Shown here: piece by piece, positions 2,242 through 11,897 of the stretch | Layout of the letters: each line of letters begins with the position of its first letter | Numbering within the stretch: the first letter of the stretch is position 1 | Origin: Caldifarciminota bacterium | GTDB taxonomy: Bacteria > Hydrothermota > Tepidihabitantia > Tepidihabitantales > Tepidihabitantaceae | Reading direction: 5' to 3' | NCBI GenBank assembly: GCA_020352555.1 | Contig: CP070680.1 | Span: 2,958,449-2,995,704 of the forward strand | Length of the DNA: 37,256 nt | Program-made: the position numbers and the translations under genes | Notes under the pieces: model-generated | Told to the model about the DNA's origin: nothing | What the model saw: only the letters and a program-made list of their open reading frames with translations | Databases searched by the model: none

Positions 2242-2896
2242 ACCAGCCCCCCATGTGATAGTTGGCGCCCAGAACGAACCCGAGCGCGCCTTTGCCCGCA
2301 ATCGGTATCCGGTAGTCGATGTTGCGGGGCTTGGTTTCGTGCCCCGGCGCATACCATTTCGACTCCAGGCTCAAGGAGAACCTGCGACCCAGTCGCAACT
2401 CCTCGCCGATGAACGGCGCGAGCACGAAGTATGGATCCCGGCTGGTCTGGAACATGCTCTGGACCCCGAAATAGGTCAGGGAGCGCCCGCCGATGAGGTA
2501 GCTGCCGACCAGTTCTGCTTGGGGCAGAAGAAGTGATTCGCCGCCCGGCTCGATCAGCCCGCACAGCCCTGCGCCGACCCCGACCGCAGGCAGCGCTCCT
2601 CGCTGTCCGATGAGCTGGTGGGTCACCCCGGCGTCGAACCCGAGTACGCCGAACGCCGCCATCAACAGGTGCCCGCCCGCGTAGACGGATGTGTTGTCGC
2701 TCAGACCATGCCGGTACCTGACTACCGCGTACGGCATCGGCATGTCCGCGCCCGCCACCTCGGCAACCGGACCGCCCAACGAGAACGCGATTGAAGACCG
2801 ACCTTTGGCAAGGGGCCGGACCGCATTGACCGTGCCGCAGCCTGTTGCGAGCAGCACTGCCAGCAAAGCCGGGACCCAGAGAGTTCTGACCGTCAT
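2234..2896 (-). CDS. Lipoprotein, probable small beta-rich outer-membrane protein
   Basis: A 220-residue lipoprotein that I do not recognise by family. The signal peptide runs MTVRTLWVPALLAVLLATGC with a canonical LATGC lipobox, the lipidated cysteine being residue 20. The rest is rich in alternating Gly/aromatic strands (for example YAVVRYRHGLSDNTSVYAGG and FVLGANYHMGGWYE), the look of a small beta-barrel or beta-sandwich of the outer membrane. ATG at 2896 was chosen over an upstream ATG at 2938 because the signal peptide begins there and AAGGGGGAA precedes it. It heads a two-gene unit with the hydrolase lipoprotein, read from a promoter at 2948-2975. Confidence 0.75.
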   Translation of the reverse strand: MTVRTLWVPALLAVLLATGCGTVNAVRPLAKGRSSIAFSLGGPVAEVAGADMPMPYAVVRYRHGLSDNTSVYAGGHLLMAAFGVLGFDAGVTHQLIGQRGALPAVGVGAGLCGLIEPGGESLLLPQAELVGSYLIGGRSLTYFGVQSMFQTSRDPYFVLAPFIGEELRLGRRFSLSLESKWYAPGHETKPRNIDYRIPIAGKGALGFVLGANYHMGGWYE

Positions 2897-2947
2897 TGGT
2901 TCCCCCTTCGGTTTTGAGCAACGGTACTCTGCTGTCATCGTCGAGAC

Positions 2948-2975
2948 AGCCTAGCGGTATCCTCCGAACCGTCAA
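2948..2975 (-). promoter_or_regulatory. Promoter of the lipoprotein pair
   Basis: On the minus strand TTGACG (2975-2970) and TAGGCT (2953-2948) are 16 bp apart, about 50 bp upstream of the start at 2896. It lies back to back with the plus-strand promoter at 2985-3012. Confidence 0.45.
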
Positions 2976-2984
2976 GCTCCTGTT

Positions 2985-3012
2985 TTGACTGATGCCTGAA
3001 TCCCCCTATCCT
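2985..3012 (+). promoter_or_regulatory. Promoter of the ferritin-like gene
   Basis: TTGACT (2985-2990), a 16-bp spacer and TATCCT (3007-3012), about 35 bp upstream of the start at 3048. The same spacing and -10 box recur upstream of the gene at 19819. Confidence 0.5.
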
Positions 3013-3047
3013 TTTTGCCGTCTGAACCCAGAGAATCCGGAGGTATG

Positions 3048-10757: not shown

Positions 10758-10997
10758 CTACTGGCCCAGACCCGGAATCGAGTCTGGGCTGACGAGACGC
10801 TGCCAGTAGCCCGAGAGACCTCCCCAATTGCTGAAGACGGCTACGACGATGACCAGCAGCAGCAAGGCGAACAACATCCACGGCAGATAGCCCAGGACGT
10901 TGGGTGACCTCCGGCGTCGCTCCAGTCTCTCCATTTCGTGGAGTATCTTCCTACCTCGGAGTTGCTCTGGATCAGGCAAGTCCTGCGTTGGCGGCAT
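10758..10997 (-). CDS. Small single-pass membrane protein, caspase-like cassette
   Basis: A 79-residue unrecognised protein. The first 38 residues are polar and basic (MERLERRRRSPN), followed by one long hydrophobic span (YLPWMLFALLLLVIVVAVF) and a short tail. The arginine cluster before the span predicts a cytoplasmic N-terminus. It begins 5 nt after the stop of the DUF6642-like gene, so the two are almost certainly co-translated. No catalytic motif is visible. A membrane anchor, partner or target for the upstream protease-like protein would fit, but this is inference. Confidence 0.6.
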   Translation of the reverse strand: MPPTQDLPDPEQLRGRKILHEMERLERRRRSPNVLGYLPWMLFALLLLVIVVAVFSNWGGLSGYWQRLVSPDSIPGLGQ

Positions 10998-11002
10998 CCG
11001 CG

Positions 11003-11581
11003 TCAGGCGTATACCATGCGGAACCCGAGACGACCTGCCAGACGACGTGTGTTGCTGCGGATGCTCTTTTCGGCCGCCTCCATGCCCTGCTGGGTCGTCG
11101 AGAACCGCTGGAGTTCGTTCATGGCGATGAGGTCAAGGGCGGTGGACGGTATCCAGTCGACATCAGTGGTGTATCCGCAAACGACCCTGACCCCGGCCGT
11201 TCTCATGAACCTCTTGACGACGCGCATGTCGATCCGCAGTACCGAGCAGGCTCCGAAGTAGATGATGCGGCGGTGGGTACGGCAGCAAAGGTGCTCGCCG
11301 AGTTGGTCGAGAGAAATCTTGTGCCTGGTGTCGATCAGGATCCGTCCGGGCTCACCATGGAACGCCAGGTAGAGGATCTTGTAGTCGGCATAGGCTTTCT
11401 GTTGCCACCGTTCGAACAGGTAGTAAAGCTCCTCCTCGGTCGAGCAATCCTTGTAGATGTAGCCTATGTCAGAATTGATCTCGAGCAGCTCAAGCACGGG
11501 CCGGACCGAGGCCCGATCGCTCAACCGCGGGTTCCAGTTCCCCTCAATACAGAAAATCTTCTTCCTGTGCTTCCGCTCCAT
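11003..11581 (-). CDS. DUF6642-like protein with caspase-type HG/AC motifs
   Basis: A 192-residue protein matching, as I recall it, the DUF6642 family (IFCIEGNWN at the start, YIYKDCSTEEELYYL, YLAFHGEPG). Two strand-plus-motif blocks have the clan CD (caspase/CHAT) signature: ILYLAFHG with H75-G76 and IIYFGAC with C112. These would form a His-Cys protease dyad. A later VVCGYTTDVDW may shape the substrate pocket. No signal peptide or membrane span, so cytoplasmic. Its start lies one base after the stop of the upstream 72-residue gene, and the small membrane protein follows after 5 nt: a tight three-gene unit. Protease activity and substrate are inferred, not shown. Confidence 0.75.
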   Translation of the reverse strand: MERKHRKKIFCIEGNWNPRLSDRASVRPVLELLEINSDIGYIYKDCSTEEELYYLFERWQQKAYADYKILYLAFHGEPGRILIDTRHKISLDQLGEHLCCRTHRRIIYFGACSVLRIDMRVVKRFMRTAGVRVVCGYTTDVDWIPSTALDLIAMNELQRFSTTQQGMEAAEKSIRSNTRRLAGRLGFRMVYA

Positions 11582-11582
11582 G

Positions 11583-11801
11583 TCATACGCCGCATGTTGT
11601 CAGCCGCGGCTGCCCGGTCTGCCGCCAGAGAACGTCAACGCCGTCAGCACACTCCACCAAGCCCAGCATCTCGTACTCCTCGGGGCTGACCAGCAGTGTC
11701 GCCACAAAGGCCGTTTTGCGCCGCCTGAACCGAGCGAAGCGACGGGCGTCATCCGGTGCCGCCTCGAGCGCCAGGGCTAGTAGCAGAGCGCCGGCGTTCA
11801 T
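11583..11801 (-). CDS. Small protein heading the caspase-like cassette
   Basis: A 72-residue unrecognised protein. The start is hydrophobic (MNAGALLLALALEAAPDD), the middle is very basic (ARRFARFRRRKTAF) and the rest includes VSPEEYEMLGLVE and DGVDVLWRQTG. Support comes from position: its stop is one base from the start of the DUF6642-like gene, and it has a promoter whose -10 box lies 6 nt before the ATG, implying a leaderless mRNA. It could be a regulator, inhibitor or substrate of the caspase-like protein. It may also be a chance frame, hence the modest confidence. Confidence 0.5.
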   Translation of the reverse strand: MNAGALLLALALEAAPDDARRFARFRRRKTAFVATLLVSPEEYEMLGLVECADGVDVLWRQTGQPRLTTCGV

Positions 11802-11807
11802 CAGGTG

Positions 11808-11835
11808 ATTGTCCCATACTCATCTCTCGTGTCAA
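11808..11835 (-). promoter_or_regulatory. Leaderless promoter of the caspase-like cassette
   Basis: TTGACA (11835-11830), a 16-bp spacer and GACAAT (11813-11808) on the minus strand. Only 6 nt separate the -10 box from the ATG at 11801, so the transcript should start at or next to the start codon. Confidence 0.4.
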
Positions 11836-11843
11836 CCTGACAC
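11829..11843. promoter_or_regulatory. Inverted repeat over the -35 box (possible operator)
   Basis: Perfect inverted repeat GTGTCA-ACC-TGACAC that covers the -35 hexamer of the cassette promoter. A regulator bound here would block RNA polymerase. No regulator gene is adjacent. Confidence 0.35.
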
Positions 11844-11897
11844 GCCAGGCAGAAGGAGACGGAGGGTCATTCAGCCGTCATGCGTGGCAATGACACC

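Follow-up and report, generated by a model that had tools for sequence, protein, structure and literature searches.

A small DUF6642 protein with a predicted caspase-like fold, encoded within an independent two-gene operon of a WOR-3 family

A 192-residue protein of the DUF6642 family is probably a small single-domain clan CD cysteine peptidase, the gene for which is an accessory carried by the promoter of an independent two-gene operon. The gene lies in a window of 37,256 nucleotides (the whole stretch of DNA analyzed) from the 3.26-Mb, single-contig genome of a Caldifarciminota bacterium. In our best reading, DUF6642 would be a clan CD cysteine peptidase in minimal, stand-alone form, patchily spread among bacteria and sometimes plasmid-borne. 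An earlier note on this DNA had interpreted the gene and its two small neighbors as a three-gene protease unit; the protease part of that interpretation held up well and the unit did not, as described below.

The DUF6642 gene occupies positions 11003–11581 of the minus strand, which also encodes its two small neighbors. The protein matched the Pfam model PF20347 with an E-value of 2.6e-24 and a score of 86.3 bits (cut-off, 27) over positions 2–182 of 182. Among named genomes, the closest relative of the window's genome was a candidate division WOR-3 MAG (67% identity in DUF6642). A literature search on DUF6642 found no paper. Two motifs pointed out previously were confirmed: ILYLAFHG leads to H75 (codon at 11357–11359), the predicted catalytic His of an HG motif just after strand β3, and IIYFGAC leads to C112 (codon at 11246–11248), the predicted catalytic Cys just after strand β4, with a spacing of 37 residues. 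The tight packing was also as described, with the 72-aa gene (11583–11801) ending 1 nt before DUF6642 and the 79-aa gene (10758–10997) starting 5 nt after it. When each of the three genes was compared with two relatives, codon position 2 had the lowest number of mismatches and position 3 the highest; this is a coding pattern, and we therefore consider all three genes to be real. Elsewhere in this genome, a 769-aa open frame contains a canonical Peptidase_C14 domain (L111, G000:C1:315115-315852).

The AlphaFold2 model of the protein, built from eight sequences, had a pLDDT of 89.0 and a pTM of 0.88. Its layout was caspase-like, with six strands and five helices in the order β1-α1-β2-α2-β3 (H75)-three short strands-α3-β4 (C112)-α4-β5-α5-further helices-β6. 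In the predicted model, β3 (residues 69–73) precedes H75, the short strands span residues 75–77, 80–82, and 88–90, and β4 (residues 106–109) precedes C112. Clan CD is described as having a core of four parallel strands in the order 2-1-3-4 with helices α1–α3, the catalytic His at the end of β3 and the Cys at the end of β4, a Gly beside the catalytic His, a small three-stranded section after β3, and an aromatic residue on the loop after β5 (PMC4357240). In the DUF6642 model, the strands and helices succeed one another along the chain as in this description, the His follows β3 and the Cys follows β4, and the last three features were also found: G76 is invariant, the three-stranded section is present, and two aromatic positions, Y137 (Y/F) and W143 (W/F), are conserved among homologues that bear the His–Cys dyad.

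The fold predicted for 11003–11581 compared best with SAVED-CHAT and then with caspases, to which Foldseek aligned it over nearly its full length. The top match in the PDB was SAVED-CHAT (8tl0; E 8.3e-7, TM-score 0.63 on the query), followed by many caspases and Csx29 (probability 1.00). In a viral structure library, the Foldseek matches were an uncharacterised Myoviridae protein and viral caspase domains. At the level of family models, CHAT (PF12770) and Peptidase_C14 (PF00656) matched neither the window protein nor any of 21 relatives at E-values up to 1, and none of the CHAT, C14, C25, and C11 models matched by sequence; the sole clan CD match was C13, in one member (E 0.023). A profile search of the PDB gave three non-significant matches, two of which were clan CD peptide asparaginyl ligases (legumain-type), and in those weak alignments the HG and Cys-strand regions coincided with those of DUF6642. 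The hhalign probabilities, for which the CHAT and C14 alignments came from the same phylum, were moderate (56–58% for CHAT and 28–69% for C14, with reversed decoys at <2%), and the HG and Cys were in register in these alignments. The model layout, the Foldseek matches, and the conserved dyad thus support well the caspase/CHAT-like reading given in the earlier note. Judged by predicted fold and active site, DUF6642 appears to be a real branch of clan CD, and this placement had not been made before, as far as the literature search and the family models show.

Homologues were collected from 147 WOR-3-phylum, 395 Bacteroidota, 396 Actinomycetota, 297 Acidobacteriota, and 385 further genomes, together with genome contigs and plasmids, each genome set being labeled with the phylum of the named locus used to draw it. 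Just over 50 distinct DUF6642 homologues were obtained, and these split into two sharply distinct sets. Outside one Bacteroidota clade, the H and C were present in all 24 homologues in which both positions could be read, and also in the later L151 (25 in total); the sources were WOR-3, Acidobacteriota, Actinomycetota, proteobacterial lineages, and three Bacteroidota. In the partial sequence L064, the C is visible. Within the Bacteroidota clade, both residues were replaced in 28 of 28 members, by P/Q/K/E/T/A at the His position and A/S/L/K/T/E at the Cys position. Loss of conservation in the family, which the earlier note had named as evidence against its reading, therefore applies to this clade only, and the dyad is kept in all 25 others. 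The dyad-less set formed a single clade in the tree (support 100/100) on a long stem, and the WOR-3 set was likewise a single clade (100/100). Among 22 diverse dyad-bearing sequences, the only invariant columns were H75, G76, C112, and G136. PF20347 scores the dyad-less proteins at 277–308 bits and the dyad-bearing ones at 41–119 bits, so the model mostly depicts the dyad-less form. The dyad-less clade showed no general conserved neighborhood, with one downstream gene family common to nine loci. In one locus (L060, 89–1111), the DUF6642 frame runs approximately 150 residues beyond the usual end, as a possible fusion or a frame run-on.

Several known systems resemble DUF6642 in part. The SAVED-CHAT protease of type III CRISPR was the best fold match, and in the profile alignment the HG and [SG]AC motifs of DUF6642 are in register with CHAT, but DUF6642 has no SAVED or other sensor domain, is only 192 aa long, and is not matched by the Pfam CHAT model. 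The Craspase system pairs Csx29 with Cas7-11. Csx29 (TPR-CHAT) matched the DUF6642 fold with an E-value of 3.4e-5, whereas DUF6642 lacks the TPR region and was not seen next to a Cas7-11 gene. With caspases and other C14 peptidases, the model shares the strand and helix order and the positions of the His after β3 and the Cys after β4, but DUF6642 has no significant PF00656 match and no long prodomain or linker. Furthermore, the residue two before the Cys is Gln in caspases and Asp in metacaspases (PMC4357240), whereas it is Gly in DUF6642 (Ser in two relatives). The dyad loss in Bacteroidota parallels that of the pseudo-orthocaspases, prokaryotic clan CD proteins whose branch has likewise lost the His and Cys (PMC6426788), although those proteins have Tyr and Ser in place of the varied residues found here. 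Finally, the orthocaspase MaOC1 adjoins a toxin–antitoxin module and its cleavage of the antitoxin has been demonstrated (PMC7935541); like DUF6642, it is a caspase homologue with small neighboring genes, but the neighbors of DUF6642 also pair without the protease.

As a peptidase, DUF6642 would have the complete caspase layout packed into approximately 190 residues, with H75, ending strand 3, and C112, ending strand 4, as the putative catalytic dyad. The S1 pocket may be shaped jointly by E13/W16 near strand 1 and the post-strand-5 loop GYTTDVDW (conserved D/E140, D/N142, and W/F143). The acidic character of this loop weakly hints at a basic P1 residue (PMC4357240 and our alignment). We assume that the enzyme acts in the cytosol, most likely, because a signal peptide was not evident by eye. 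The gene would be a mobile or easily lost accessory, which in the window appears to ride the constitutive-looking promoter of the 72-aa/79-aa operon. For the dyad-bearing forms, an accessory role in stress or defence is more likely than a housekeeping one.

The 72-aa and 79-aa genes are an independent conserved two-gene operon in one WOR-3 family (including L136–L142 and L144–L150). The first gene was found in 11 genomes, all of one family-level group, and the single-sequence fold of its product was unusable (pLDDT 53). The second encodes a protein with a single predicted membrane span and a basic N-terminal side, as judged by reading the sequence rather than with a predictor. The order 72 aa–DUF6642–79 aa was found in the window's genome (G000) and in G119, G120, and G105, i.e., in four of the six DUF6642-carrying WOR-3 genomes of this family, one of the remaining genomes being cut by a contig end. 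The neighborhood survey found this order in no other phylum. The junctions were tight or overlapping in three of the four loci, and in G120 the gap between DUF6642 and the 79-aa gene was approximately 190 nt. Directly upstream of the arrangement in G120 is a papain-family (C1) peptidase gene (L066, 11976–12836). The flanking genes do not occur only with DUF6642 between them: the pair stood bare in seven genomes (G109, G113, G114, G115, G116, G117, and G118), and in the five junctions inspected (G109 and G114–G117) the second gene starts a few bases from the stop of the first. Three of these genomes (G115, G116, and G117) have the bare pair, on the same strand, upstream of the aldehyde dehydrogenase gene and next gene that also follow the filled pair in G000 and G119. 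The DUF6642 gene of G115 is on another contig, beside a peroxiredoxin-like gene, and is the sister of the window's copy in the tree (99/99).

A sigma70-type promoter, TTGACA-N16-GACAAT (11808–11835, minus strand; second hexamer within TGxGACAAT), precedes the 72-aa gene, the start codon of which comes 6 nt downstream of the second hexamer, a spacing that makes a near-leaderless transcript probable. TTGACA, 16–18 bases, GACAAT or a close variant, and a start codon a few bases on were found at all 10 loci with sequence upstream of the 72-aa gene, whether DUF6642 was present or absent. The promoter that the earlier note had assigned to the protease is therefore real and conserved, but it is a property of the pair. 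Given that both the promoter and the neighbors belong to an independent pair, DUF6642 joined, or was lost from, a two-gene operon. The perfect 7-bp inverted repeat CGTGTCA-3-TGACACG (11828–11844), previously called operator-like, does exist and overlaps the -35 box. However, the 3.26-Mb genome has a single copy and five relatives have none, and approximately 9% of window shuffles yield one match at ≤ 2 mismatches; we therefore rejected the operator reading, for which only the position of the repeat speaks.

These observations bear on two other explanations. If the three genes formed a unit, DUF6642 might cleave the 79-aa membrane protein (or be held by it), so that stress or phage attack would release a fragment acting on the membrane, with the 72-aa protein as a regulator. 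The shared order and close junctions in WOR-3 are consistent with such a unit, but the bare pairs, of which three occupy the corresponding chromosomal site, the G115 genome with its DUF6642 gene elsewhere, the ownership of the promoter, and the absence of such partners in other phyla make it quite improbable. It is also unlikely that the protein uses its caspase fold for binding or as a scaffold and its H and C for another purpose. The 28 Bacteroidota members without both residues are near the dyad-bearing set in profile (hhalign 99.8%), and because the dyad is missing from their whole clade, the fold does something other than His–Cys catalysis there. Elsewhere, neither residue changes in any of 25 members from several phyla, although most of the sequence varies, and both are in register with the clan CD catalytic residues, which speaks against this alternative for the dyad-bearing proteins.

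A further explanation, compatible with the peptidase reading, is an anti-phage or other defence effector protease that has a host or phage target and moves between genomes as an accessory; we regard this as possible but tentative. The distribution of DUF6642 is patchy (8 of 147 WOR-3-phylum genomes, 7 of them over the cut-off; 3 of 396 Actinomycetota; 8 of 297 Acidobacteriota; and 3 of 385 genomes in the phylum set of G148). Dyad-bearing forms are rare and were carried by two plasmids, on one of which an Abi_C gene lies nearby. At individual loci, the neighbors were of defence type, namely an AriA/OLD-like AAA ATPase (L014), a type II methyltransferase (L077), DUF5131 (L067), a Cas4-like DUF2779 (L012), Abi_C (L025), and HsdR (L066). 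Against this, other loci had transporter or metabolic neighbors, the PADLOC models matched none of the three proteins of the window, and no DUF6642 copy was found in the phages and IMG/VR contigs searched. Given these transporter and metabolic loci and the uncontrolled tally, a phage-defence role is a possible lead only. Other neighbors were a dynamin-family GTPase gene directly downstream on the same strand (L076, 7114–8850) and, in the related genomes of L013 and L151, a gene downstream on the opposite strand that the two seem to share (DUF4922/Ap4A phosphorylase-like in L013). Upstream of DUF6642 in L012 is a 191-aa protein (2471–3046) that looks papain-like by eye (CW...HSI...D) and has no Pfam match. 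A recurrent papain-like partner was rejected, as this protein and the C1 peptidase of L066 showed no mutual phmmer match.

DUF6642 is ordinary in kind, and its interest lies in its small size, the clean split into dyad-bearing and dyad-less forms, and an apparent unit that is two things overlaid. A Pfam family of unknown function gains a predicted fold, a predicted active site, and a testable activity; judged from the dyad-less clade that the Pfam model favors, its enzyme signature would stay hidden. In our judgment, 192 aa is among the smaller complete caspase-like domains, which makes the protein useful for asking what a clan CD peptidase minimally needs. Additionally, tight gene packing alone is no proof of a functional unit, since the relatives show the neighbors paired without DUF6642. 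More speculatively, DUF6642 may be an undescribed family whose members, as minimal stand-alone proteases of caspase type, act as mobile accessory effectors, possibly in defence, in several phyla, with one Bacteroidota branch as a vertically kept pseudo-protease. If this is true, the effectors and the pseudo-protease branch would form a natural before-and-after pair for the repurposing of the caspase fold.
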